Assembly: GCA_001563905.1 (NCBI GenBank)
Contig: LKMO01000006.1
Location: 1 to 35,340 of the forward strand
DNA: 35,340 bases
From: Nanohaloarchaea archaeon B1-Br10_U2g19
GTDB taxonomy: Archaea > Nanohalarchaeota > Nanosalinia > Nanosalinales > Nanosalinaceae
Direction of reading: 5' to 3'
A program made the position numbers and the translations under genes. Each line of letters starts with the position of its first letter. Position 1 is the stretch's first letter. This document shows, piece after piece, positions 3,792 through 17,508 of the stretch. The notes under the pieces were generated by a model. That model was given only the letters and a program-made list of their open reading frames with translations. It had not been told where the DNA came from and searched no databases.

Positions 3792-4331
3792 ATGGATAAA
3801 AAAGAGATTAAACAACTTCTAACAGATTCTAAACACATTCAGATTCCTGAAGATATAGAGAAAGCCGAAATGGAAGGTAAAGAACTTTCACAGTTACTGG
3901 AACACGGGAATAGCGAAGAAGCAGAGCTTAAGAAGATAGATCAGCAGATAGAGAAAGAATTGGGAGAACTCAAGAAGATGCTTGGAGAAGATGAGACAAT
4001 ATTACAGGAAATGGAAAACTGTCTGCATTATCTGGAGAATCTAGAGACTATTATGCAGAACGAGAAAAGTACCTTAGAGTTCATGTCTGATAAGTCATCA
4101 GCTAAAACTGTTTTGAAAGATATTGACACCACTCGGAATAAGCTTCAAAGCGAGTTACAACAGGAAGAAAATATTACAGATAAGTTAGAAAATCAGTTTT
4201 CCAGTCTGAAGAAGAATGCTCCTAAAGGCAAAGCTGTTGCAGGTACAGCAGCCAGAGCAAGCATTTCTACATTAAAGCTAGTCTTAATAAGTGTTATAAT
4301 CCTAGTCGCCCTAACCTGGTTCTATATCTAA
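3792..4331 (+). CDS. Tail-anchored coiled-coil protein
   Basis: This 179-residue protein is mostly charged heptad-like helix (about 15-140), containing runs such as KIDQQIEKELGELKKMLGED. A Gly/Ala/Lys linker follows (KKNAPKGKAVAGTAARAS), then a single C-terminal transmembrane helix (LKLVLISVIILVALTWFYI, 161-179) that ends the protein. There is no signal peptide, so the coil should face the cytoplasm. It follows the frameshifted coil gene by 12 bp and probably shares a transcript and perhaps a complex with it. Nothing identifies a function; tethering or membrane organisation are possible. Confidence 0.65.
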   Translation: MDKKEIKQLLTDSKHIQIPEDIEKAEMEGKELSQLLEHGNSEEAELKKIDQQIEKELGELKKMLGEDETILQEMENCLHYLENLETIMQNEKSTLEFMSDKSSAKTVLKDIDTTRNKLQSELQQEENITDKLENQFSSLKKNAPKGKAVAGTAARASISTLKLVLISVIILVALTWFYI

Positions 4332-4635
4332 ACCATGTATTAGAGTTTCTGTATCTGAAATCTGGCTACTGAAGTCTTCTTAGTTTTTCGATCAGGTTAC
4401 AGTCTTTAACATGCAGAGAGTTTGTTGGAAGAACTACTGTTCTTTTAGAGTCCGATAGGAATATTATTTTTCTATTTCGGCTTAAAAATAACCTTTAACC
4501 TATTAAGTAATATGAAGTTCTAAAAGCCTATAAACTACTTTAACAATCTAAAAGATACTAAAACAGCACAAAAAAACCTTTAAGTCTTAACCACAGTAGA
4601 AAAGTCTTTTATAACTTTACTAAAGAACAAATAAT
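4332..4635. other. Intergenic region with tandem promoter-like boxes
   Basis: This 304-bp non-coding stretch is AT-rich. It holds a CTTAAAAATAAC box (4481-4492) with no long ORF 25 bp downstream (only a 3-codon MKF-stop at 4512). It also has two AACCTTTAA-like copies (about 4491 and 4576) and the proper TATA box of the next gene (4606). No RNA gene or ORF of note is visible on either strand. Confidence 0.4.
4606..4614 (+). promoter_or_regulatory. TATA box for Tat lipoprotein
   Basis: CTTTTATAA is centred 25 bp before the ATG at 4636, which predicts a leaderless transcript. Confidence 0.5.
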
Positions 4636-5484
4636 ATGAAACGCAGAGAATTACTTGGAACCAGCAGTATAGTTTTAGGATCATTAGTTGCAGGATGTTC
4701 TAACTCTACAAGCGAAAGCAGTGGAGAAGAACCCTATCATTTCAGCAACTGGCTACATGCAGACCACGAACCTGCATTCGGATATACCAACTTCGAAAAA
4801 GCAGAATCCGAGGTAAAAATGGGAGGACTAAAAGATTATTTCGGTATAGATGAAGAAGATGTAGCGTCAATAGTTACAATGCCTCAGATCTCCGGAGATG
4901 CAAGCGAGTTTGTACTGGAAGGAGACTTCAGCAAAGACGAAGTCATAGAACATCTTGAGGAAGAGTCTGATGCCGAACCTGAAGGAGAGTATGGAGGCTA
5001 TGACATCTTAGAAGCAGGAGAAACCATAGAAGTAGACCATCTCTTTTTAGAAAACCATCACTTAGGCGTCAGCTCCGACACAATTGTAGCAACATACGAC
5101 CACGAAGACCGTATCGATGCTAGAAACGGAGAAGCAACTAGACCGACAGATGAGGACGAAGACTTCGAACTCTTATTCTCCAATATGCCTGATGCGGAAA
5201 ACTTCGAAGAACCGTACATTTTTAGTGGCGGAGAATATCTATCAATGGACGAAGTAAAGTACCGAGCAGAGTCTCTTCTCAAGATAAGCCCTCCGGATTC
5301 TCCTGGCTTATACCACACCAACCTAGTATTTGAAGATGAGGAATATGTAACTGAAGAAAACATTGAAGACGCATTAAACCAAGAGTATGAAGACCGTAGC
5401 GGTGTCAGACTTGAAAATATAGTGGAAGAGGATATTGATGGAAAATTGGCATCGCTGGAATGGGAGTACATACCAGTAGCCTAA
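4636..5484 (+). CDS. Tat-exported lipoprotein, unknown function
   Basis: This 282-residue protein begins MKRRELLG and reaches a lipobox LVAGC with Cys21. The RR pair before a short, weakly hydrophobic core is the twin-arginine lipoprotein form common in Haloarchaea, where folded proteins are exported. The mature part is acidic. A central segment reading [19 protein letters not shown]...[10 protein letters not shown], then [12 protein letters not shown], resembles a layout I recall from unnamed haloarchaeal Tat lipoproteins in which a GDFD-type strand precedes a GY turn. No catalytic motif is visible. It stands alone, with its own promoter. Confidence 0.75.
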
Positions 5485-5543
5485 ACTCTCTACCCTTTTC
5501 TTTCTCTTTAACCATAAAAGCTCACGGTACAAAAACAAGTTTT

Positions 5544-5825
5544 ATGGCATCAGAAGTACGTGCATCACATATCCTTGTTGACGACAAGGAGAAAGCAGAA
5601 AATATTAAACAACAGATAGACAACGGTAAAGAGTTCTCAGAACTGGCAAAAGAAGCCAGTAACTGTCCATCAGGAGACAAAGGCGGAGACCTAGGATTCT
5701 TCGGTAAAGGTCAGATGGTGAAGCCTTTCGAAAGAAAAGTATTCAGCATGGATGTAGGAGAGATCTCTAAACCTGTAAAAACCGAGTTCGGCTACCACTT
5801 AATCAAGAAAACCGACGAAAAATAG
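5544..5825 (+). CDS. Parvulin-type peptidyl-prolyl isomerase
   Basis: This 93-residue protein is a stand-alone PpiC/parvulin domain that catalyses cis-trans isomerisation of X-Pro bonds. Family marks in order are VRASHILV at the start, [33 protein letters not shown] in the middle and [11 protein letters not shown] at the end. There is no signal peptide, so it works in the cytoplasm. I chose ATG 5544 over an in-frame start at 5460 because homology starts at VRASHIL and the earlier start would run into the preceding gene with unrelated sequence. A TATA-like CATAAAA lies about 28 bp upstream. Confidence 0.92.
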
Positions 5826-5862
5826 AAGGATTTAAATTAAATTCCTTCATCCCTTTCTTCAC

Positions 5863-5870
5863 CTTTATAA
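5863..5870 (+). promoter_or_regulatory. TATA box of the S13-S4-S11-RpoD operon
   Basis: CTTTATAA is centred about 39 bp before the rps13 ATG and predicts a leader of roughly 14 nt, unlike the leaderless starts elsewhere in the window. Confidence 0.45.
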
Positions 5871-5905
5871 GATTTAACTCAGATTTAGGAGTTACGGGTT
5901 ATACT

Positions 5906-6385
5906 ATGGCCGAGACACAAGAAGTTGTAAGAATTGCAAGAACAGGAGTTGACGGTACAAAACCAGTCTCCGAAGCATTAACAGGACTAAAAGGAGTTGG
6001 CGAAAGATACGCTAACGCAATAGGAAAAGAATTAGACTTAGATTCAGATACACGTCTCGGTGACTTATCTGAACAACAGATCAACAATATTGAAGAAATG
6101 ATTAAGAACCCTGACCAAGTAGATCTCCCTTCATGGATTAGAAACAGGAGACACGACAGAGACGAAGGAGACAACCAACACTTAATCGAATCAGATCTTG
6201 AACTCAAAGAAGAGTTCGATATCAGAAGACTGAAAGAGATAGCAAGCTACAGAGGATGGAGACACAAGATTGGTCTACCAGTAAGAGGTCAGAAGACCAA
6301 ATCCTCATTCAGATCAGGAAGCAAGATCGGAGTTTCAAGAGCAAGACTACAGGAAGAAGCATCACCTGACGGAGGCGACGAATAA
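5906..6385 (+). CDS. rps13: 30S ribosomal protein S13
   Basis: This 159-residue protein of the small-subunit head contacts the P-site tRNA and the large subunit. The helix-hairpin-helix segment LKGVGERYANAIGKEL is near residues 28-43. The basic C-terminal region IASYRGWRHKIGLPVRGQKTKSS is the archaeal S13 signature. The protein ends in a short acidic tail (SPDGGDE), unusual for S13 but typical of halophile extensions. It opens the operon; its stop overlaps the rps4 ATG by one base (TAATG), implying coupled translation. Confidence 0.97.
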   Translation: MAETQEVVRIARTGVDGTKPVSEALTGLKGVGERYANAIGKELDLDSDTRLGDLSEQQINNIEEMIKNPDQVDLPSWIRNRRHDRDEGDNQHLIESDLELKEEFDIRRLKEIASYRGWRHKIGLPVRGQKTKSSFRSGSKIGVSRARLQEEASPDGGDE

Positions 6386-6927
6386 TGGTAAAGAAACTAA
6401 AACAACAGTACGAGACACCGACAGAAGGATGGAGTCAAGAAAGAATTGAAAGAGAAGACAAGCTCATAGAAGACTACGGTCTCAAAAACAAGAAAGAAGT
6501 ATACAAAGCAGAAAGCGAACTAAGAAACCTTAGAAGAGAAGCAAGAAGACTGATCGCTGAAGAAGATGAAGATCAGAGAAAAGATCTTATTGAAAGAGTA
6601 CACGGTCTAGGACTTATAACAAAGAAGTCAGGACTGGAAGATATTCTAACACTTAACACAACAGACATACTAAACAGACGTTTACAGACAGCTGTAAACA
6701 GAAGAGGCTACTCTGACACAGTAAGAGAAGCCCGACAACTAGTAACACACGGACACGTCTACATCAACGGACAGAAAGTAAACATTCCTGGCTACCTACT
6801 AACACAAGAAGAAGAGAAACAGTTAGAAGTAAGAAAGCCAGAACCAGAAGAAACAGAAGAAGTTGAAGAAGTAGAGGAAGAAGCGGAAGAAAACCCTGAA
6901 GAAACAGAAGAAGAACAAGAAGAATAG
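6385..6927 (+). CDS. rps4: 30S ribosomal protein S4 with acidic tail
   Basis: This 180-residue protein is a primary 16S rRNA binder in the small-subunit body. The S4 RNA-binding domain is recognisable as RRLQTAVNRRGYSDTVREARQLVTHGHVYINGQKVNIPGYLL, about residues 94-135. The last 30 residues are almost all Glu (EETEEVEEVEEEAEENPEE), a long acidic extension beyond the core. The start is fixed by the TAATG overlap with rps13. Confidence 0.97.
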   Translation: MVKKLKQQYETPTEGWSQERIEREDKLIEDYGLKNKKEVYKAESELRNLRREARRLIAEEDEDQRKDLIERVHGLGLITKKSGLEDILTLNTTDILNRRLQTAVNRRGYSDTVREARQLVTHGHVYINGQKVNIPGYLLTQEEEKQLEVRKPEPEETEEVEEVEEEAEENPEETEEEQEE

Positions 6928-6936
6928 GTGTAACAA

Positions 6937-7320
6937 ATGACAAAGAAAGGTATCGTAAACATTTACTCAAGCTTCAACAACACAATGATTCACATAACTG
7001 ATGCTACAGGAGCAGAAACAATTGCTAGAGTAAGCGCAGGAATGGTAACAGATAAAGGAAGACTACAAGGATCTCCTTTCCCAGCTATGAAAGCAGCTAA
7101 ACAAGCTTCAGAAGAAGCTAAAGAGAAAGGAATCGAAAAAGTAGATATCCAAGTAAGAGCGCCAGGAGGAAGCAAGATGAAGATGCCTGGTAAAGGAGCA
7201 CAGCCAGCAATCAGAGCAATCTCCAGAAGCGACCTAGAAGTAGGTAACATCGAAGACGTAACCCCTGTACCGCACGACGGCGTAAGAGCTAAAGGCGGTA
7301 AAAGAGGAAGAAGAGTCTAA
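6937..7320 (+). CDS. rps11: 30S ribosomal protein S11
   Basis: This 127-residue platform protein of the 30S subunit opens with [24 protein letters not shown] and ends with [22 protein letters not shown], both standard for archaeal S11. In the RNA-contacting loop the usual PGPGAQ reads PGKGAQ. A GGTG ribosome-binding site sits at 6927-6930, seven bases before the ATG and overlapping the rps4 stop. It is the third gene of the operon. Confidence 0.97.
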
Positions 7321-7321
7321 A

Positions 7322-7903
7322 GTGGTCAAAATGGATATTGAAACAGTTGAAGAGACAGAAGACGTTCTTAAACTCAAAGTTGAAGGTATCAACGAAGCAG
7401 TAGCCAACTCCCTACGACGTTCAATGATGATAAAAGTACCAACACTTGCCATCAAAGAACTAGACGTAGTCAAAAACGAGTCAGGACTTCTTGATGAAGT
7501 ATTAGCAAACAGAGTAGGCCAGATTCCGTTCACAATACCGAAAAACGTTGATGAAGAAAGCCAGGTAAACATAGCACTTACACAGGAAGGACCAGGAACA
7601 GTACTAGCAGAAGACCTGAAAGCAGATAACGATGAAGCAGAGCCTGTAAACCCTGAAACCGTACTAGTAACACTCAAAGAAGATCAAGGATTAGACTTTG
7701 AAGCAACAGCAGTACTAGGAACAGGAGAAGAACACGCCAAACATCAAGGCGGAACAGTAGGATACGAAAAACTGGATGACGAAACATACCAGTTCAGAAT
7801 CGAATCAACCTCAGGCTACAGTAACGAAGACCTTCTCGAGACAGCTATTCAGACACTTAAAGAAGAGCTTGACGTGTTTGAAGAAGCAGTAGCCGAACTT
7901 TAA
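7322..7903 (+). CDS. rpoD: DNA-directed RNA polymerase subunit D, lacking Fe-S cysteines
   Basis: This 193-residue subunit is the archaeal counterpart of bacterial alpha and eukaryotic Rpb3 and pairs with subunit L to start polymerase assembly. The assembly motif EAVANSLRRSMMIKVPTLAI (about 24-43) and RVGQIPF are clear. The protein has no cysteine, so the [4Fe-4S] domain seen in some archaea is lost; only a short acidic segment fills the insert region. GTG 7322 and ATG 7331 are both possible starts, one base or nine bases past the rps11 stop. It is the last gene of the operon, followed by tRNA-Leu. Confidence 0.95.
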   Translation: MVKMDIETVEETEDVLKLKVEGINEAVANSLRRSMMIKVPTLAIKELDVVKNESGLLDEVLANRVGQIPFTIPKNVDEESQVNIALTQEGPGTVLAEDLKADNDEAEPVNPETVLVTLKEDQGLDFEATAVLGTGEEHAKHQGGTVGYEKLDDETYQFRIESTSGYSNEDLLETAIQTLKEELDVFEEAVAEL

Positions 7904-7913
7904 ACATATCTAC

Positions 7914-7925
7914 TTATTTTTCTCT
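7914..7925 (+). terminator. T-rich terminator after rpoD
   Basis: A TTATTTTTCTCT tract lies 10 bp past the rpoD stop and ahead of the tRNA-Leu promoter, in the form of an archaeal U-tract terminator. Confidence 0.4.
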
Positions 7926-7953
7926 ATAATTTCTAACCACAGTTACCGAGTCT

Positions 7954-7963
7954 AGTTTAAACT
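7954..7963 (+). promoter_or_regulatory. TATA box for tRNA-Leu
   Basis: The palindromic AGTTTAAACT is centred about 31 bp before the 5' end of the tRNA gene, so the tRNA probably has its own promoter. Confidence 0.4.
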
Positions 7964-7989
7964 TTTGTAACACCAAATAAGTACAGGCA

Positions 7990-8072
7990 GCCGGGTTAGC
8001 CAAGTGGTCAAAGGCGACGGACTCAAGATCCGTTCCCGCAGGGGTTCACAGGTTCGAGTCCTGTACCCGGCA
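7990..8072 (+). tRNA. tRNA-Leu (CAA)
   Basis: The acceptor stem GCCGGGT (7990-7996) pairs with ACCCGGC (8065-8071), with A8072 as discriminator. The anticodon stem ACGGA/TCCGT holds the loop CTCAAGA, anticodon CAA. A long variable arm (TTCCCGCAGGGGTTC region) marks a class II tRNA, as expected for Leu. The T-loop is TTCGAGT. CCA is not encoded. Confidence 0.95.
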
Positions 8073-8155
8073 AAACCTCAATCTAGCTATAAGAACATAC
8101 ATACAAAAGGCTAGAAATTACTACTGTTTGAGTTCTAATTAAGGAAAATGAAGGG

Positions 8156-8509
8156 TTAGTTATCTCCTAATCCGGATAGTTCGTCTTGAAGAGTCTCTAA
8201 CTCAGAGTGAAGCTCTTCTACAGAGTCATCAATCTCTGATGTTTCATCAGTGTTTTGAGGAGCATAAGTTGCAGTCTGTGCTCCATCTACTTCCGGCATC
8301 TCCATTTCAACGTCTTCAAGTTTGTCGTTCAGTCTGTCAACGTTCTCGTATATTGTGTCGATAGATTTCTCTTTAACGTCTCTGACTTGTGAGAGTACTT
8401 CTGAAGCCTCTCTAATATTTTCTATTATCTGTCTTACGGCTTCTAAGTCTTGTAAAAGTATTTTATAGCCGTCCACTCTTACGTATAGTTGGTCTTCTTC
8501 AGATACCAT
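8156..8509 (-). CDS. Conserved archaeal coiled-coil protein
   Basis: This 117-residue soluble protein begins with a short beta-like stretch (QLYVRVDGYKILLQDLEAVRQ). It continues as a helix through REASEVLSQVRDVKEKSIDTIYENVDRLNDKLEDVEMEMPEV. The pattern 'VRVDxYKxxLxxLExxRxxI...REAxExLxxxRxxKEK' recalls small uncharacterised archaeal proteins of about 90-120 residues. An acidic, low-complexity linker and a short second helix form the C-terminus. It faces away from the tRNA and CWB2 genes. No function is known to me. Confidence 0.7.
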   Translation of the reverse strand: MVSEEDQLYVRVDGYKILLQDLEAVRQIIENIREASEVLSQVRDVKEKSIDTIYENVDRLNDKLEDVEMEMPEVDGAQTATYAPQNTDETSEIDDSVEELHSELETLQDELSGLGDN

Positions 8510-8848
8510 TTCCTTACAAAACTGTTTCTCTACGCCGCTTATTAAAAATAACTTTTTTGGAGAAATGGAAAAGTAGTTTCTCAGAGGTGTTCAAGTTGTC
8601 ATCATCCCTCTTCAGCGTCGAGGATCAGACGATGTCATAAACCTCATCATCGAAAGTAAACAGTTTTATTTGAGGTGTAAACTCCTTTATAGCCTTCCTT
8701 CAGTCACCGGGTATTGTTGAAAAGCATCTCAAACAAAAAGCTTCCTTGAGGTCAAGCACTATAAAGAGTTTATTCCGGCTAAGACTGTCCTAGAGCACAT
8801 CATATCCATTAGGAATATTAAAGCTGGCTCCTATTGAACGGTGTGACC
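8510..8848. other. Intergenic gap with promoter-like box and possible gene relic
   Basis: This 339-bp stretch has no intact gene. It holds a TTATTAAAAATAAC box (8540-8553). One plus-strand frame is open apart from a single TGA (8718-8720) between a TAG at 8574 and a TGA at 8835; its second half reads protein-like (KHYKEFIPAKTVLEHIISIRN). The minus strand also offers a plausible broken frame (EFTPQIKLFTFDDEVYDIV). It could be a decayed gene, a transposase scrap or a non-coding RNA. I cannot decide between them. Confidence 0.35.
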
Positions 8849-9730
8849 ATGAGATTGATTGCTGTATTAGCACTTTCACTGGCTCTAATCTCAGGGGTTG
8901 CTATAACACACGCACAGGAAGAACCACAGGAAATGGAGAACGTTACACTGCTGACGGCGCAAGACTTAGACTTTCTAGTCGCCTCATCCGTATCCAATAA
9001 CTTCCAGTTACCATTGATGCTTACCGACTCTGAAGAGTTATCAGAGGAAGCATTGATGCAAATAGAACAGATTCAGCCTTCAGAAGTTATCGTGATCGGT
9101 GGTCCGGAAGCAGTTTCTGACGAAGTAGTCCAACAGGTAGAAGACCATGAACTTGTAGAAGAAGTAACACAGGTTTATGGAGAAACCGCCTCAGAGACCT
9201 CGGTAGCAGTCTCACAGATGTTCTGGGACGAAGCTGAAGAAGCAGTAGTAGTTCACGGACAGCCTGATCAAACAGCTATTACAGAGATAGCTGAAACCCA
9301 GGTCGAAGGCCCAGTACTTCTATCAATGACTGAACCAGTACCAGAAGAAATGCCTGAAGAAGAACCGGCTCCTGAAGAAGAGAACATGACCGAAGACGAC
9401 GAAGCTGTACCTGAAGAAGAAACACCGCCTGAACCAAACGAAACAGAAGAGCAAACACAGTTAGAAGAAAATGAAACACAAGACGAGATAGAGGAACCTG
9501 TCCTAGAAGAGATTGAACGTCTAGGTGTTCAAAACGTAGTGCTCTACACTGCTGACGAAGCGGTAGCAGAACAGTTAGAAGAACAAGGACTCAACGTTGA
9601 AACAGAAGAAATGCCTGAAGAAGAACCAGAAGAACAGCCTGAAGAGGAAGAGAACGAGAACGGTCTTCTAGAAGAACTTGAAGAAGAGTTCGACGAAGCA
9701 TTCAACGGAGACGAACAGCCTGAAGAATAA
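8849..9730 (+). CDS. Secreted CWB2-like surface protein with acidic tail
   Basis: This protein has a Sec signal peptide (MRLIAVLALSLALISGVAITHAQ) and no later membrane helix. Residues about 30-130 match the cell-wall-binding repeat 2 (CWB2, PF04122) pattern: LTAQDLDFLVASSV, LPLMLTDSEELSEEAL, then VIVIGGPEAVSDEVVQQVE and YGETASETSVAVSQM. A second partial copy (VVVHGQPDQTAI, then VQNVVLYTADEAVAEQLE) follows, separated by a Pro/Glu-rich acidic linker, and the C-terminus is again acidic. CWB2 binds anionic wall polymers in Gram-positives; in archaea its ligand is unknown. I prefer ATG 8849, with GGTG 6 bp upstream and a normal signal peptide, to TTG 8834, which adds only five residues. Confidence 0.75.
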   Translation: MRLIAVLALSLALISGVAITHAQEEPQEMENVTLLTAQDLDFLVASSVSNNFQLPLMLTDSEELSEEALMQIEQIQPSEVIVIGGPEAVSDEVVQQVEDHELVEEVTQVYGETASETSVAVSQMFWDEAEEAVVVHGQPDQTAITEIAETQVEGPVLLSMTEPVPEEMPEEEPAPEEENMTEDDEAVPEEETPPEPNETEEQTQLEENETQDEIEEPVLEEIERLGVQNVVLYTADEAVAEQLEEQGLNVETEEMPEEEPEEQPEEEENENGLLEELEEEFDEAFNGDEQPEE

Positions 9731-9824: not shown

Positions 9825-11147
9825 GTGAAGAACCAAATGATTGAAAGAAAATACACTCATGAGATAACATCAGAAGATGAAGGAGAAAAAGTGTCCGTAG
9901 CCGGCTGGGCACACGAAATAAGAGACTTAGGAGGAATAAGCTTCGTAATTTTAAGAGACCGTGAAGGAGAGATACAGATAATATTCAAAGAAGACGACAA
10001 CGAAGAACTATTCGAAAAAGCACAAGAAATAGGTAAAGAAGACGTTATACACGTAACCGGACAGGTATCAGAAAACGACCAAGCACCAGGAAACCGAGAA
10101 ATCCATCCTGAAAGCCTGGAAATAATCAGCAACGCAGAATCACCTCTACCAATGGACATCTCTAAAGATATTGATTCAGATCTTGCAACACGGTTAGACG
10201 CACGTTTCATGGATTTGAGACAGCCAGAAGTACATTCAATCTTCTCGCTTAGAAGCCATATCATCAACGCAATGGAAGAATGGTTCGAAAAAAACGAGTA
10301 CATCAACATTCAGACCCCTACCATCGCCAAAATGGGTGCAGAAGGAGGAGCAGAGCTATTCCCAGTAATCTACTACGACCAAGAAGCTTTCCTAAGCCAG
10401 AGCCCTCAGTTATACAAACAGATGTTAATGGCTGCAGGATTCGACAAAGTATACGAGACCGGTACAGCTTTCAGAGCTGAAGACTTTGCGACAAGCCGGC
10501 ATATCTCAGAGATCTCAATGTTCGATGTTGAACTAGCGTTCATCGAAGACCATCACGACGTAATGGATGTACAGGAAGACTCCCTCAAGTACACACTTGA
10601 AAAAGTACAGGAACGAGCAGCAGACGATCTAGATATTCTAGGAATCGACTTAGAGATTCCTGAAGACGATTTCCCAAGAGTCAGGTTCGAAGAAGCACGT
10701 AGAATACTGAAAGAAGAGTATGACCACGTACCTGAAGACGACAACGACTTAGATACTAAAGGCGAGAAGCTTCTTGGAAAACATTTCGAAGAACAGGGTC
10801 ATCCAGCGTTCTTCGTAGTCGGTTATCCTGATGAAAAGTTCTACTACATGCAGGACGTAGAAGGTGACGACATCGCATCAAGAAAGTTCGACCTGATCTA
10901 CAAAGGCTTAGAGCTATCCTCCGGAGGTCAGAGACAGCATGACTTCGACACACTAATGGAGTACGTACATGAAGAAGGTGCAGATCCAGAGGACTTCTCG
11001 TTCTACCTAGAAAGCTTCAAGTTCGGTATGCCTCCACACGGAGGATACGGTCTTGGTATCGACAGACTGGTAAAACAGATAGCCGAACTAGAGAACGTGA
11101 AAGAAGGTATCCTGTTCCCAAGAACACCGGACAGGCTAACACCTTAA
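9825..11147 (+). CDS. aspS: Aspartyl-tRNA synthetase, non-discriminating type
   Basis: This 440-residue class IIb synthetase charges tRNA-Asp and probably tRNA-Asn with aspartate. The N-terminal OB fold spans about 15-110. Class II motif 2 is [17 protein letters not shown] (about 213-229) and motif 3 is [11 protein letters not shown] (about 405-415); the length and layout are archaeal. In the anticodon-binding domain, His30 (GWAHEIRD) and Pro88 ([10 protein letters not shown]) occupy positions that hold Trp and Lys in the discriminating Thermococcus enzyme. His and Pro mark non-discriminating AspRS, which works with an Asp-tRNA amidotransferase. GTG 9825 fits a leaderless start after AATAAAAAAA; ATG 9837 is the alternative. 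Confidence 0.95.
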
Positions 11148-11207: not shown

Positions 11208-13733
11208 ATGGCAGAGACCGTTCAGAAACAAGAGACAGAGACCTCTACTAAGATTAACAAGGTCACTTCTAAAGGATTCAAGTCCTTTCAACAAAAGACC
11301 GCCGTACCTTTCTTTGAAGGATTAACAGCGATTGTAGGAGAAAACGGGAACGGTAAAAGCAATATTCTTGACGCCATGAGCTTTGTATTCGGCCGTAGAA
11401 GCTCCAAGATCAGAGCAGAGAAGATGACACAGCTTATCTTCAACGGAGGAGAAAACCGTAAAGCCGCTGACTACGCCCATGTAACCATTTACTTAGACAA
11501 CTCTAGCGGCATCTTCGACGAATTTTTAGAAGAAGACGAAGAAGCCGACGAAATAACTGTAGGCCGTAAAATTACGCGTGCCGGAAGCTCCATGTACAAA
11601 TTCCAGGGAACCAACTGTAAAAAATCAGTTATAGAAGATATCAAACGGAAAGGCAACATCGATCCCGATGGATACCACTTCGTAAGACAGGGAAAAGTAA
11701 CAGAGATTGTTGAACAAAGCGATGTAGATAGAAGAAAAGTAGTTGACGAGCTTTCAGGCGTATCAAAGTTCGATCAGAAGAAAGAAGAAGCTGAAGAAGA
11801 GCTTGAAGAAGTCGAATCCAAGCTTCAAGAACAAGAAATACTTTTAGAAGAGAAAAAGGAATACCTAGAGAAATTAAAAGAGCAGAAAGAACTCGCATTA
11901 AAATACAGAGAACTTGAACAACGTAAAGAAAAACTAGAAGCCTCTACACTAATAGTACGTAAAAGAGCATTATCCAACCAGCTAGCAAACATTAACACTG
12001 ACGTATCCGATAAAAGAGAACGTATAGAAGAACTTGAAGAAGAACTAGAGGAGTTAGACGCTGAAATAGATCAGAAACAGGAAAGAATTGACGAAATTGA
12101 TGAACAGCACTCCTCCGGAATGACGGATGTACAGCATCTGGAGAACCGTATAGAGAAAAAAGAAGGTCAGATAGAGAACAAACGTGACAAAGTAGAAGAT
12201 CTAGAGGAAACCATTCAAGAGCTAGAAAAGATGAAGAACCGTCGGAACACAGGATCCCGAGCAGTCGACGCAGTTCTATCTATGAACAACAACAAGATTT
12301 TAGGTGCCTTCCAAGACCTTATCTCTGCCGACAACCGTTTTGCTGTAGCTGTAGAGACAGCTGCAGGAGGACATATGAAAGACGTTGTTGTAGAAGATAA
12401 AAACACTGCCTTAGATGCTATAAACTATTTGAAAAGAGAGAACATTGGAAGAGCACGGATGCTACCTTTAGACAAGATAAGTACCCGCTCAAAAAGCGCT
12501 AAGTCACAGATGGCTAAGAAAAAGAAAGGCGTAATAGGTTATGCTTCAGAAATAGTTAACTACGATCAGAAATATGCGAAAGCCGTAAACCACGTGTTTT
12601 CAGATACTTTAATTGCAGAAGACCTTGAATCAGTTAAAAATATTGACGGAATCCGTGTTGTAACTCTTGATGGAGACGTAATGTCTCGTGGCGGAGCTAT
12701 GAGCGGAGGTAAGAAAAAGCAACGTAGAAGTAAGAACAAAAAGCTCTCTCAAAGCCTAGATCCGGAGAAAAAGAAAGAAGAGAAAAAAGAAGTAGAGAAA
12801 GAGATAGAGAAACTACAGAAAGATATCGCTGAACTAAAACAGATGAAAGAGAGGAAAGAAGACAAACAAGAAACAGATGAAGACCTAGTTCAAGAGAAAA
12901 AACAGATAAGAAAAGATCTGAGAGAGTTGAGAGACAAGAGACAAGATCTTTACTCAGAGAAACAGAAGATTAAGACCAAAGTTGACGATGTCGGCGGAAA
13001 AAAAGCACGGCTCAAAGCAGAACTAAGCAATGTCGAAGACGATTTAGAGGATTACGACTACGATGAAGACGAACTGCCAGGCCTAGACTCTTCTCCAGAA
13101 GACCTGAAAAAGAAAAAGAAGAAACTACTACGTAAACAGAACTCTATGGGTCCTGTAAACATGAGGGCTATAGACGAGTACAAACAACAGAAAGAAGAGT
13201 TTGACGAGTTTAACGAGAAGATATCCGAGATAAGGAGAGAAAAACTTGAAATTGAAGATATGATTAACGAGATTGAGAAGAAAAAACGGTCCTGTTTCAT
13301 GGAAACCTTAGAACAGTTACAGGAAAGCTTCTCCCGTATCTTCACACAGCTGTTTGACGGCGGTAACGCCGAACTAGTTCTAGAAGATGATGATATAGAC
13401 AAAGGACTGAAAATCAGGGCAGCTCCACCTAAGAAAGATCCTCACATAATACAGGCTTTATCTGGAGGAGAAAAAACTTTAACAGCTATTGCATTCGTAT
13501 TTGCAATCTTGGAGTATGAAGAAAGTCCTTTCTACATCATGGATGAGATAGATGCTGCTTTAGATAAGAAAAACTCAAAGAAGCTTTCAGAGCTACTGAA
13601 AGACTACGCTGATGACAACCAGTTCATAGTTATCAGCCACAACGAGATAACTGTTAGACATGCTGAAAGAGCCTACGGCGTATCTATGAAAGAGGGTGTC
13701 TCTCGTATGAGAAGTATAGATCTAGACGCATAA
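11208..13733 (+). CDS. smc: SMC chromosome-segregation ATPase, short-armed
   Basis: This is the core ATPase of the SMC-ScpAB condensin, which compacts and separates chromosomes. The N-terminal head has GFKSFQ and Walker A GENGNGKSN (44-52; usually GxNGSGKSN), with Q-loop FVRQGKV at 158-164. The first coil spans about 185-345. The hinge spans about 353-500 and contains FAVAVETAAGGHMKDVVVED and the glycine-rich SRGGAMSGGKKK end. The second coil is about 515-690. The C-terminal head has signature LSGGEKT (751) and Walker B FYIMDEIDAALD (775-786). All ATPase motifs are intact, yet the protein is 841 residues against about 1150-1200 for typical SMC, with arms roughly half the normal length. ScpA and ScpB lie downstream. 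Confidence 0.95.
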   Translation: MAETVQKQETETSTKINKVTSKGFKSFQQKTAVPFFEGLTAIVGENGNGKSNILDAMSFVFGRRSSKIRAEKMTQLIFNGGENRKAADYAHVTIYLDNSSGIFDEFLEEDEEADEITVGRKITRAGSSMYKFQGTNCKKSVIEDIKRKGNIDPDGYHFVRQGKVTEIVEQSDVDRRKVVDELSGVSKFDQKKEEAEEELEEVESKLQEQEILLEEKKEYLEKLKEQKELALKYRELEQRKEKLEASTLIVRKRALSNQLANINTDVSDKRERIEELEEELEELDAEIDQKQERIDEIDEQHSSGMTDVQHLENRIEKKEGQIENKRDKVEDLEETIQELEKMKNRRNTGSRAVDAVLSMNNNKILGAFQDLISADNRFAVAVETAAGGHMKDVVVEDKNTALDAINYLKRENIGRARMLPLDKISTRSKSAKSQMAKKKKGVIGYASEIVNYDQKYAKAVNHVFSDTLIAEDLESVKNIDGIRVVTLDGDVMSRGGAMSGGKKKQRRSKNKKLSQSLDPEKKKEEKKEVEKEIEKLQKDIAELKQMKERKEDKQETDEDLVQEKKQIRKDLRELRDKRQDLYSEKQKIKTKVDDVGGKKARLKAELSNVEDDLEDYDYDEDELPGLDSSPEDLKKKKKKLLRKQNSMGPVNMRAIDEYKQQKEEFDEFNEKISEIRREKLEIEDMINEIEKKKRSCFMETLEQLQESFSRIFTQLFDGGNAELVLEDDDIDKGLKIRAAPPKKDPHIIQALSGGEKTLTAIAFVFAILEYEESPFYIMDEIDAALDKKNSKKLSELLKDYADDNQFIVISHNEITVRHAERAYGVSMKEGVSRMRSIDLDA

Positions 13734-13751: not shown

Positions 13752-14165
13752 ATGGAATCTTACGAGCACTTCATTATTTCAGCAGTTGTAAGCCTTCCTC
13801 TAATTTACATGGTTGCAGGTTTTCCTGGTATAGTTTTGTTTACAGCCTACTGGCTTTACAGCATTGCTGCAGGCACTTTAATTGATCTGGACCACTTTAT
13901 AATCTCCACTATAAGAGATAGGAACTTTAAGGAGGTTAGATTAGCTTTTTCAAGTCCTAAAAAGATTTTAACAGACAACAACGAAGCTCTGGACAACACT
14001 ATACCAGAATGGAGCCGTTATATAAGCCATGTAGTCATACTTATAGGTTTTCCTCTACTGCTACTGAATTATAGTACAGTTCTAGCTGAGTTAACGTTCG
14101 CGGTTCTCCTAGTACATCTCATATCTGATATCTACGGTAGCTATAGAGAGTATTATTTAGAATAG
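13752..14165 (+). CDS. YdjM-like membrane protein (putative metal-dependent hydrolase)
   Basis: This 137-residue integral membrane protein has about four hydrophobic helices (roughly 8-28, 32-45, 88-108 and 110-128). Histidine and aspartate residues at helix ends (YEHFIIS, GTLIDLDHFI, YISHVVI, VHLISDIYG) match the pattern of the YdjM/DUF457 family of membrane-bound putative metal-dependent hydrolases, although it is shorter than most. It starts 18 bp after smc and is probably co-transcribed; 104 bp then separates it from scpA. Whether it has any link to chromosome segregation is unknown. Confidence 0.5.
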   Translation: MESYEHFIISAVVSLPLIYMVAGFPGIVLFTAYWLYSIAAGTLIDLDHFIISTIRDRNFKEVRLAFSSPKKILTDNNEALDNTIPEWSRYISHVVILIGFPLLLLNYSTVLAELTFAVLLVHLISDIYGSYREYYLE

Positions 14166-14269: not shown

Positions 14270-14995
14270 ATGGAACAGTATGAAATCAACGAACTAGCAG
14301 AGCAGCCCTGGGAAGAAACACTTGAAGTACTAACAGCAGATATGGATCCTCACAGTATAGATATCTGTCTTCTAACAGAGAGATACCGCGAATATATTCA
14401 AGAGCTTCAAGAGTTTGATCTGGAAGTTCCTGCACGCGCCGTAAGACTTTGTGCCGCACTTCTGAAAATAAAGACTTTAGCGGTTGCAGGAGAAGAAGTT
14501 GTAGAGGAAGAACCAGAAAACCCTATGGACTTTGAAGAGGAGGAAGAGTTTCTTGAAGACGAAGTCTATGAAGATCCTGAACCCTCACTTGAGACCGGTC
14601 CGGATTTAGATATACCTGTAAAACCTCGGCCACGTAGAAGAATGAGTCTTGACGAACTTAAAACTGCTTTAAACGATGCTTTAGAAGTTAAAGAGAGGCG
14701 TGAGGAGAGAAGAGAGCTGCGACAACAGATGGATGATCCTGTTGATATCGATGAGAAAAGTCTTGAAGAGAAGGTCAACTCTTTGTTTTCACGTGTTACC
14801 TCACTTGTATCTTCAAAAAGCAGGGAACGAATACCGTTCAACAACTTGGTAGAGAACGGTGATAAAGAGGAGAAGATCGAGAAGTTTCTACACGTACTAC
14901 ATCTAGAGAATGAACAGAAAGTAGAATGTATACAAGATGAATGGTTAGGCGACCTAGAAGTAAAGCCTCAACAGAAACCCGAGGTATTCAACTAA
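14270..14995 (+). CDS. scpA: Segregation and condensation protein A
   Basis: This 241-residue kleisin bridges the two SMC heads and carries ScpB. The N-terminal segment PWEETLEVLTADMDPHSIDICLLTERYREYIQELQEFDLEVPARAVRLCAALLKIKTLAV (about 13-72) is the standard ScpA N-domain that binds the SMC neck. The middle is an acidic linker with RPRRRMSLDEL. The C-terminal winged helix (KSRERIPFNNLVE...KFLHVLHLENEQKVECIQDEWLGDLEV) binds the SMC cap. Length is normal. It is followed 43 bp later by scpB. Confidence 0.93.
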   Translation: MEQYEINELAEQPWEETLEVLTADMDPHSIDICLLTERYREYIQELQEFDLEVPARAVRLCAALLKIKTLAVAGEEVVEEEPENPMDFEEEEEFLEDEVYEDPEPSLETGPDLDIPVKPRPRRRMSLDELKTALNDALEVKERREERRELRQQMDDPVDIDEKSLEEKVNSLFSRVTSLVSSKSRERIPFNNLVENGDKEEKIEKFLHVLHLENEQKVECIQDEWLGDLEVKPQQKPEVFN

Positions 14996-15038: not shown

Positions 15039-15575
15039 ATGGAAGAGAAAAAATCCCGGCTCGAGGCAGCGCTTTTTCTAAGCGAGGAAGCTTTAGACAA
15101 CAAACAGATAGCAGACATCCTAGATCTTGGAAGTATAGGCTACGTAGACATGCTTATAGAAGAGTTCCAACAAGACTTAGAAGATGAAGACAGAGGTCTT
15201 GAACTTGTTGATACCCCTGAAGGCTACGAACTCAAAGTAAAGAAAGATCATTTAGAACATGTCTCGCATCTAGCCCCTCACCAAGACCTGAACGAAGGTC
15301 AGTTAAGAACGCTTTCTCTTATTGCTTACAACGCGCCTGTAGAACAGACCGATATTATCGATATACGTGGAAACCGGGCCTACCAGCATGTGAAAGAGAT
15401 GGTGAAAAGAGGATTTATCTCAAAAGAGAAAGACGGTAGAACCGCTATACTTGATGTTACCGACCATTTCTTAGAGTACTTCGAGCTTGACTCTGTGGAC
15501 GACTTCAAAAGACAGTTTGAAAACGAACAGGCAGGACGAGACTCAACTCAAGACGGTATCGATGCTTTCAACTAA
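15039..15575 (+). CDS. scpB: Segregation and condensation protein B
   Basis: This 178-residue protein has two winged-helix domains and binds ScpA as a dimer. The first domain starts KSRLEAALFLSEEALDNKQIADIL and includes the strand GLELVDTPEGYELKVKKDHLEHV. The second includes LSLIAYNAPVEQTDIIDIRGNRAYQHVKEMVKRGFISKEKDGRTAILDVTDHFLEYF. The segment 'AYNxPVxQxDIxxIRG' is the ScpB family signature. Start ATG 15039 gives standard length. It is part of the smc-scpA-scpB cluster and is followed 37 bp later by rqcH. Confidence 0.94.
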   Translation: MEEKKSRLEAALFLSEEALDNKQIADILDLGSIGYVDMLIEEFQQDLEDEDRGLELVDTPEGYELKVKKDHLEHVSHLAPHQDLNEGQLRTLSLIAYNAPVEQTDIIDIRGNRAYQHVKEMVKRGFISKEKDGRTAILDVTDHFLEYFELDSVDDFKRQFENEQAGRDSTQDGIDAFN

Positions 15576-15612: not shown

Positions 15613-17508
15613 ATGGAGCTTACCAGTTTAGACCTCTCACTTTTAATGAATGATTTAGACGAGTTAGAGAACGGTCATGTACAGAAAGTATACCAGAGAA
15701 AAGATGAGTTAACATTAGAGGTCTATGTAGGCGGTGAAGGTAAGAAACGTGTTATAATAGGTCCTAACCATGTTTTTCTATCAAAGTATAAACGTGACAA
15801 TCCTCAGAAGCCTCCAGGATTTGCTATGGAGCTTAGAAAACATCTTGGGCGTATCACAAGTATAGAGCAGCGTGGTTTTGACCGGATACTTGAAATTGAG
15901 AGTGGAGACACCAAGCTAATATGCGAGGTCTATGGTAGAGGTAACTTCGTGCTTACGAAAGACAATAAGATTATAGGAGCATTAAGAGAAGAAGAATGGG
16001 CCGACAGAACCATCCGTGTGGGTGAAGAGTACAGTTATCCTGAACCAACTTTTGATCCTCGTGATACAGAGAGCCATGTTGAAACCTTGGGAGAAGGTGA
16101 AGTAGTACGTAAAATTGCTTCAGACCTGAGTCTCGGAGGAGTATACGCCGAAGAGATCTGTGAGAGAACCGGTATAGACAAACACAAAGCTGTTGACGAT
16201 TTAGAGGAGGACGAAAAAACCAGGTTAGACGAGGAGATTAACGAAGTACTGTTCGGAGAGCTCTCACCACAGCTATATATCGAGGACGAAGATCCTGTAC
16301 GTGCCTCCCCATTCGAACTACAGACCTACAGCGAGTACGATACCCAAGATGTTGAAAGCTTTTCCGAAGCCTTAGATACTTACTTCTATATCAAAGAGAA
16401 ACGGAAAGAAGAGAAAAAACTCAACAAAGCATACAGAGAACGGAAAGAAGGTTTAGAAGCCCAATTAGAACAGCAGAAACGTAAGATACAAGGCCTAGAA
16501 AAGTCTTCAGAACAGAACCGGGAGACCGCAGAAAAGATATACGAAAACTACCAGGAGCTCGAAGAGATCAAAGAGATGGTTGAAGAAGCGCTTGACAAGT
16601 ATGGCTGGAAAGAAACAGAGAAACGGATCAGTGAATCTGAAACCAGTGTTTCAAACAGGATTAAAGGATTCAACGAGCAAGAAAGATTTTATACTGTAAA
16701 AATTGATGGTGAAACCGTAAAACTTAAGCCAGGAGACAACTTAGAAGCTACAGCTTCAAGATACTACGACAAGGCTAAAGACTCCGAATCAAAGATTAAA
16801 AAAGTTAAAAAAGCGAAAGAAGAGACAGAAAAACAGTTAGACGGCCTTGAAAAAGAAGAGATAGATATAGAAGATGTCTTAGAAGACAAAACACAGAAGA
16901 GAAGTAAGAAATGGTTCGAAAAATACCGGTGGTTCTACTCGTCTGAAGGCTACCTCGTCTTATGTGGAAGAGACTCACAGACAAACGATATGCTTGTGAA
17001 AAAACATATGGAAAGTAACGATCTCTACTTCCATGCAGACTTCGACGGCGCTCCTAGCGTAGTAATAAAAGACGGGCAGGACTCCGGTGAAGAAACTCGC
17101 CAAGAAGCAGCCAAAGCATCCATAACATTCTCTAAAACCTGGAAAGCAGGTATAGGATCCGACAACGTCTACTATGTTGCACCTGACCAGGTTTCACAAG
17201 AGCCTGAGCCAGGAGAATATCTGCCGAAAGGCGCATTCATAGTTAGAGGAGACAGAAACTACTTAAGAAACGTTAAAGTGGAGGCAGCCGTAGGAGTATA
17301 CGAGGTAGAAGAAGATGTCTATGTACCTGTAAGCGGTCCGGTAAAAGCTATAGAAGAGAACTGTTTAGAACATGTAGAGATAAAACCTGGCAGAAGTAAG
17401 AAATCAGAGGTCGCTAAAGAGATAAGATCTCGTTTTGACGACTACGACATTGACTTAGACTATATAATCCGTGTTCTTCCACCAGGAAAATCAAGTATTA
17501 AAAGTTAG
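15613..17508 (+). CDS. rqcH: Ribosome quality-control factor RqcH/NEMF (NFACT)
   Basis: This 631-residue homologue of bacterial RqcH and eukaryotic Rqc2/NEMF binds split 50S subunits carrying stalled peptidyl-tRNA and recruits tRNA to add C-terminal tails. The NFACT-N domain begins MELTSLDLSLLMNDL and holds the Asp-Arg pair (GFDRIL, Asp90-Arg91) that corresponds to the functional DR of RqcH. Helix-hairpin-helix and two coiled-coil stretches (about 255-335 and 385-430) follow. The NFACT-R domain reads KWFEKYRWFYSSEGYLVLCGRDSQTNDMLVKKHM (about 437-470) with NDLYFHADFDGAPSVVIK. Its last four bases overlap the convergent tfb gene. Confidence 0.94.
   Translation: MELTSLDLSLLMNDLDELENGHVQKVYQRKDELTLEVYVGGEGKKRVIIGPNHVFLSKYKRDNPQKPPGFAMELRKHLGRITSIEQRGFDRILEIESGDTKLICEVYGRGNFVLTKDNKIIGALREEEWADRTIRVGEEYSYPEPTFDPRDTESHVETLGEGEVVRKIASDLSLGGVYAEEICERTGIDKHKAVDDLEEDEKTRLDEEINEVLFGELSPQLYIEDEDPVRASPFELQTYSEYDTQDVESFSEALDTYFYIKEKRKEEKKLNKAYRERKEGLEAQLEQQKRKIQGLEKSSEQNRETAEKIYENYQELEEIKEMVEEALDKYGWKETEKRISESETSVSNRIKGFNEQERFYTVKIDGETVKLKPGDNLEATASRYYDKAKDSESKIKKVKKAKEETEKQLDGLEKEEIDIEDVLEDKTQKRSKKWFEKYRWFYSSEGYLVLCGRDSQTNDMLVKKHMESNDLYFHADFDGAPSVVIKDGQDSGEETRQEAAKASITFSKTWKAGIGSDNVYYVAPDQVSQEPEPGEYLPKGAFIVRGDRNYLRNVKVEAAVGVYEVEEDVYVPVSGPVKAIEENCLEHVEIKPGRSKKSEVAKEIRSRFDDYDIDLDYIIRVLPPGKSSIKS

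Follow-up and report, generated by a model that had tools for sequence, protein, structure and literature searches.

Why the arms of SMC proteins have the length they do is an open mechanistic question. A natural small condensin offers a direct test of the models that presuppose long arms (scrunching, segment capture and elbow folding), and the locus described here may provide one. The window, by which we mean the whole 35,340-nucleotide stretch of nanohaloarchaeal DNA that was analysed, contains an SMC-like open reading frame of only 841 codons. Is it a true SMC, is its small size inherited or accidental, and could a protein with such arms work as a condensin? In short, we find that the short-armed SMC is genuine, conserved and intact, and that it belongs to a known kind.

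The protein is a true SMC with ScpA and ScpB encoded next to it

The smc gene (11208..13733, + strand, as are all of its domains and the scpA, scpB, tRNA synthetase and rqcH genes below) begins with ATG and was delineated from the ORF list, its translation and Pfam and NCBIfam matches. Pfam recognizes SMC_N (3.4e-44) and SMC_hinge (9.2e-28), and NCBIfam recognizes SMC_prok_A (5.8e-202) and SMC_prok_B (1.9e-180). The score for SMC_prok_B (TIGR02168) exceeds its cut-off (602.2 versus 567.35), while that for TIGR02169 falls below (673.4 versus 729.4), as expected, because about 340 model positions are missing from the short SMC. Pfam and the HeadN profile delimit the N-terminal head (residues 15-188; 11250..11771). 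The hinge (residues 363-497; 12294..12698), set by landmark profiles and by PF06470 at residues 363-475 (97.4 bits, cut-off 22.5), is placed between two coiled-coil strands. The C-terminal head (residues 690-841; 13275..13733) was assigned from the translation, Pfam and a profile, and it carries the signature and Walker B. The split ABC ATPase head is present in full, with residues that we take to be Walker A (G44-N52), the Q-loop (Q161), the signature LSGGEK (751-756) and Walker B FYIMDEID (775-782). Domain matches and motif positions thus agree with the initial annotation, which had described complete heads, hinge and ATPase motifs joined by shortened arms. Its impression that the Walker A sequence GENGNGKSN (residues 44-52; 11337..11363; from the translation and the HeadN profile) is slightly unusual has to be dropped: GxxGxGKS is intact and fits the ordinary consensus. 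The full GENGNGKSN is read in 10 of the 28 Nanohaloarchaeota rows (23 distinct loci).

The predicted structure (mean pLDDT 77.7, pTM 0.44, 10 sequences behind the prediction) points the same way. It matches the head structure 4i99 with a Z-score of 34.7 and the Pyrococcus yayanosii head-coil-joint structure 5xei with a Z-score of 32.6 (488 of 517 residues aligned, rmsd 6.0; Foldseek was also run). There is virtually no chance that the protein is instead Rad50-like or an archaea-specific SMC-related protein (ASRP), because the weak matches that might hint at it (74.2 and 123.5 bits) are far under the curated cut-offs (700 and 300), an SMC hinge occupies the place of the Rad50 zinc hook, SMC_prok_B is above cut-off, and ScpA and ScpB are encoded close by. 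A search for the ASRP family gave no above-cut-off match in any of five genomes. The 841-residue open reading frame is a true SMC, followed by genes for ScpA and ScpB.

The kleisin gene scpA (14270..14995) encodes 241 residues (PF02616, 3.9e-12; matches cover its N- and its C-terminal part), and scpB (15039..15575) encodes 178 residues (PF04079, 2.1e-38; TIGR00281 above cut-off). The neighbours on both sides are conserved in synteny: upstream a class II tRNA synthetase (9825..11147; Pfam), for which aspS-like is one reading of the match, and downstream rqcH (15613..17508; NF041120 above cut-off). Between smc and scpA lies a hydrophobic ORF of 137 residues (13752-14165) without a Pfam match; in the loci scanned for synteny, its sole other occurrence was in L031, downstream of rqcH. 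Positions 8834-9730 encode a very acidic protein of 298 residues, whose hydrophobic N-terminus may be a signal sequence and which has a cell-wall-binding repeat 2 domain (PF04122). A search of the window's own genome (662,884 bases) returned the SMC as the sole match to its own sequence.

The partners were sought in 44 genomes, 38 of them with a short SMC. ScpB was found in 38 of these 38 and ScpA in 34; for Nanohaloarchaeota the count is 17 of 17 for both. Nanohaloarchaeota keep the order smc-scpA-scpB, as do many of the Aenigmatarchaeota loci. ScpA was not found in four of the 38 short-SMC genomes, three from family f21 and one from f20. In f21, whose arms are the shortest of all (about 150), an ORF of 186-211 residues lies between smc and scpB. 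Three such ORFs were tested: the one in L110 (6117-6749) has a weak Rad21_Rec8 match (0.0015), the one in L113 (3060-3623, minus strand) a weak match to the ScpA C-terminal part (0.013), both under cut-off, and the one in L114 (3181-3738, minus strand) neither. This small ORF may encode a divergent kleisin. In the study of Jeon et al. (accessible part of PMC7055376), ScpB was detected in none of 285 Halobacteria, and ScpA-ScpB binding failed for all six archaeal ScpAs tested.

The gene is intact

Both findings that could have undone the initial annotation, an assembly deletion and full-length arms in close relatives, were looked for. Instead, the SMC is of the same size across the phylum, and no close relative has full-length arms. 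The sister genome (96% identity) has the same length, as do single-contig genomes (G014-G019, G026), and the frame is free of stops. Against the nearest genome, dN/dS is 0.010-0.012 for the heads, 0.023 for the hinge and 0.019-0.029 for the arms. These values are rough, since dS is near saturation (0.86-1.72 for the two closest genomes); taken as such, they suggest purifying selection in the arms as in the heads. The window's genome is in 35 contigs and 79.5% complete, which might invite the idea of an assembly deletion or a decaying gene, but the phylum-wide length, the single-contig genomes, the absence of stops and the strong purifying selection already refute it, leaving it with a negligible probability. 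Because the short version recurs across the whole phylum as well as in further small archaea, the short SMC is a design passed on by descent, not the product of gene damage. One Nanohaloarchaeota genome has an SMC match split into two overlapping pieces (G020:C7:26704-29216; L019, L028, L205), the N-terminal one with three in-frame stops, which indicates a frameshift or an assembly fault.

Arm length on a common scale

Arm length was measured between four landmarks located with profiles built from the collected SMCs: F188 (end of the N-terminal head), K363 and A497 (hinge) and L715 (C-terminal head). The N-terminal strand (residues 189-362; 11772..12293; model helices 186-298 and 307-343) spans 174 residues from F188 to K363. 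The C-terminal strand, including the joint (residues 498-714; 12699..13349; model helices 519-550, 559-613, 630-646 and 654-716), spans 217 from A497 to L715, giving a mean of 195.5. By the same landmarks, the 1186-residue Smc of B. velezensis has strands of 348/391 (mean 369.5), the SMC of Natronorubrum bangense 352/380 (mean 366) and the 978-residue Smc of Mycoplasmopsis cynos 248/280 (mean 264). The arms are therefore half-length, as the initial annotation had it. Of its estimates, about 160 and 180 residues were right in indicating short arms, although the exact figures hinge on where the ends of head and hinge are set, and the roughly 300 allowed for a typical arm is too low, given 344 residues published for B. 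subtilis Smc (accessible text of PMC5344682).

Two calibrations convert these values to the published scale, both on the assumption that the arm of the reference proteins equals the B. subtilis value of 344. With 19 Bacillota (median 353/390, offset 27.5) the window SMC has an arm of 168.0 residues, and with B. velezensis Smc (offset 25.5) an arm of 170. By the latter offset, N. bangense SMC has an arm of 340.5, and the Mycoplasmopsis Smc, our positive control, one of 238.5 (264 - 25.5), on the published mode of 238. According to the same accessible text (PMC5344682), natural arm lengths cluster at 238, 341 and 515, with possible minor modes at 163 and 423; the passage on the histogram does not name the owners of the 163 mode. 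At 168-170 residues, the window SMC is close to this minor mode, against 344 in B. subtilis, which is a common length but not a defining one for SMC. Scaled from the published 47 nm per 344 residues, its arm would be about 23-25 nm long, roughly half that of B. subtilis.

Short arms belong to whole lineages

Among 28 Nanohaloarchaeota genomes, the window's own included, we obtained 22 full-length matches, five partial ones and none in the remaining genome. All 22 are of this short size. Across 28 Nanohaloarchaeota loci (23 distinct), N-terminal strands measure 173-181 and C-terminal strands 215-222 residues. The few longer open frames owe their length to in-frame upstream sequence or an intein and not to longer arms. 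The comparison with Haloarchaea suggested by the initial annotation thus sets a uniformly short phylum against one measured haloarchaeal SMC, that of Natronorubrum, which is long. In Aenigmatarchaeota, 62 of 67 genomes have a hinge match, and in 58 of these 62 the open frame measures 805-861 residues; the other four comprise two with inteins (1386 and 1353) and two that start at a contig edge (684 and 600). A wider archaeal sample gave an SMC match in 112 of 149 genomes. Short frames occur there also in f16, f18, f20, f21, f33, f50 and f66, and the remaining frames are mostly 1118-1245 residues long. For relatives of Ruminococcus (116 of 119 with a match) and of Acidobacterium (88 of 96), lengths are mostly 1184-1217 and 1220-1400, respectively.

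The 123 distinct SMCs that we measured (23 from Nanohaloarchaeota, 21 from Aenigmatarchaeota, 16 other short, 44 long archaeal and 19 from Bacillota) fall into two classes, 60 at 149.5-179.5 and 63 at 319.5-350 on the Bacillota offset, with none between. Since the sequences were chosen for fetching, this distribution shows the gap and not frequencies, and the published 238 class is represented by the single Mycoplasmopsis control. Dropped before the count were L017 (truncated), L035-L043 (Lokiarchaeota, no hinge match), L047, L177 and L178, as well as L019, L026-L028, L046 and L049-L051 (not full) and seven duplicate copies; L052-L098 (short flanks) were unused. The short arm is a lineage trait common to whole phyla, not a peculiarity of one genome, because it spans these phyla and matches the published 163 mode. 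Our literature search found no publication that deals with the length of SMC arms in these archaea, subscription papers being mostly outside its coverage.

Several candidates for other lengths dissolved on inspection. The 929-residue frame of G100 (L199, family f49) is a short-armed SMC with a C-terminal extension of about 90 residues. Frames of 987 (G075), 1089 (G044) and 751 (G121) residues are cut off by the end of their contig, and the arm that can be measured in each is long. Frames of 1386, 1353 and 1391 residues contain inteins and do not represent long arms. Three short-armed SMCs of Nanohaloarchaeota and Aenigmatarchaeota carry an intein with a LAGLIDADG endonuclease domain, inserted in each at roughly the same position, K/S of Walker A: L033 (Candidatus Nanosalinarum J07AB56; 4183-8355), L133 (1248-5405) and L134 (1623-5681). 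A literature search on SMC inteins returned no paper combining the elements of this topic. The Lokiarchaeota loci L035-L043 encode SMC-like proteins of about 1490 residues with SMC heads and without a match to the first hinge query; the one tested with Pfam, L036, has no hinge match.

The missing residues map between joint and hinge

The joint loops (residues 614-653; 13047..13166) are identified by the model, the match to 5xei and the spacing of a GPVN motif, which precedes the LFDGG landmark by 64 residues. This spacing is exactly 64 in 100 of the 123 SMCs, short and long alike, the other 23 being without the motif, and the model shows the split C-strand helices of a head-proximal joint. Compared with B. 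velezensis, each strand is 174 residues shorter. The missing residues lie between joint and hinge, since the joint keeps its exact spacing and is seen both in the model and in the match to 5xei. The initial annotation proposed that arm length sets the size of the DNA loop that the ring can hold. In B. subtilis, arm function is periodic in length, with a period of 91 residues, and does not simply follow a rule that longer arms hold more (accessible text of PMC5344682). The loss of 174 residues (344 - 170) is near two such periods (182).

In the model, both strands are also interrupted at a distance of some 40 residues from the hinge, in the N-terminal strand at the hinge-proximal residues 299-306 (12102..12125) and in the C-terminal strand, at about the same level, at residues 551-558 (12858..12881). 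Arm indels among the 23 Nanohaloarchaeota rows fall at 265-267, 302-305, 345, 508-510, 550-558 and 611-627, all of them loops or helix ends in the model except 265-267, inside a predicted helix. A glycine/proline profile shows a similar break site in the f33 group and in Bacillota, and no such site in Aenigmatarchaeota or in the pooled long archaea. We make no claim of an elbow at these breaks.

A probable working condensin with short arms

Taken as a whole, the explanation we favour, at a probability of about 0.75, is that of a functional condensin, SMC-ScpA(-ScpB), whose short arms were inherited and are about two periods shorter than usual. Its ATP-driven head engagement and release would open and close the ring and move DNA as in other SMCs, on arms about two superhelical length periods shorter. 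A cut between joint and hinge would let head, joint and hinge keep a compatible phase, and this preserved phase would explain a length that keeps to a discrete class instead of varying at random. The two parts differ in standing. That the complex functions as a condensin is very probable, judging from conservation: the protein retains intact heads, hinge, joint and ATPase motifs, its gene has those for kleisin and ScpB beside it, and its length stays fixed from one end of the phylum to the other. For phase tuning we would give even odds, as the argument involves one subtraction and the short class spans 150-180.

One objection comes from engineering. The shortest functional engineered B. subtilis arm has 253 residues (accessible text of PMC5344682), and even this arm folds the chromosome poorly (accessible text of PMC8357415); by that yardstick, an arm of 168-170 should fail. 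The short SMC could then be no loop extruder at all, only a static or diffusing clamp that bridges DNA. Engineered short arms that were non-functional still hydrolysed ATP, so intact ATPase motifs are no proof of translocation. However, full ATPase motifs, a kleisin and strict joint spacing have all been kept, and a clamp would not obviously need them. We therefore rate a mere clamp as quite improbable; an archaeal SMC tuned to its own length is more likely than one doing less than loop extrusion.

One origin or several

A 43-row tree built on heads and hinge alone unites Nanohaloarchaeota, Aenigmatarchaeota and families f18/f50 in a single clade (99/98), places f33/f66/f16 and f21 outside it and has three changes between short and long arms. 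An 86-row tree leaves the backbone open and has four such changes; in a first quick version of it, most short rows were joined (SH-aLRT 99). The AU test does not reject one common origin for all short arms (p 0.312 with f21, 0.468 without), so the shared length need not be convergence.

This result also gives room to a neutral account, in which arm length is a by-product of genome reduction, the arms having shrunk for want of any constraint, and the common length reflects shared descent only. Short arms do occur in small genomes (0.5-1.9 Mb). Yet full arms are retained in equally small archaeal genomes, G097 (0.6 Mb, 1171 residues) and G117 (0.8 Mb, 1194 residues), which weakens streamlining alone. 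Moreover, Nanohaloarchaeota SMCs down to 42% identity to P0001 keep their length constant within a few residues, and the 123 measured proteins include no intermediate. The neutral account is unlikely in our view, and the inherited, working short-armed condensin remains our preferred reading. In its boldest form, which we consider doubtful if possible, one ancient loss of two superhelical periods would set apart a broad set of archaea with small genomes (Nanohaloarchaeota, Aenigmatarchaeota and several further families), and the arms with which their condensins move DNA would, at about 24 nm, be shorter than the engineering limit. Were this true, the mechanism would need hinge-head phase and not reach.

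Relation to known systems

Compared with bacterial and archaeal Smc-ScpAB (B. subtilis Smc; TIGR02168/TIGR02169), the system is alike in its heads, joint, hinge and kleisin and ScpB genes, whereas the window SMC has about 174 residues fewer per arm strand than B. subtilis Smc, between joint and hinge. It resembles the mini-Smc constructs of B. subtilis (Burmann et al. 2017; accessible text of PMC5344682) in combining short arms with intact heads and hinge and in its length class, but those constructs worked only down to 253, against about 168-170 here; the window SMC would thus be a natural example shorter than the engineered limit. Mycoplasma-type Smc, as in Mycoplasmopsis cynos, is likewise naturally shortened in a reduced genome, although its arm is one class longer. 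Haloarchaeal Smc-ScpA of Natronorubrum bangense shares the order smc then scpA and the salt-lake habitat, yet its arm is about 340 residues long, and Halobacteria are without detected ScpB (accessible part of PMC7055376), whereas the window has an scpB gene. The short-arm class itself was already hinted at by the 163 mode of the published histogram; its tie to whole archaeal lineages is the new part.
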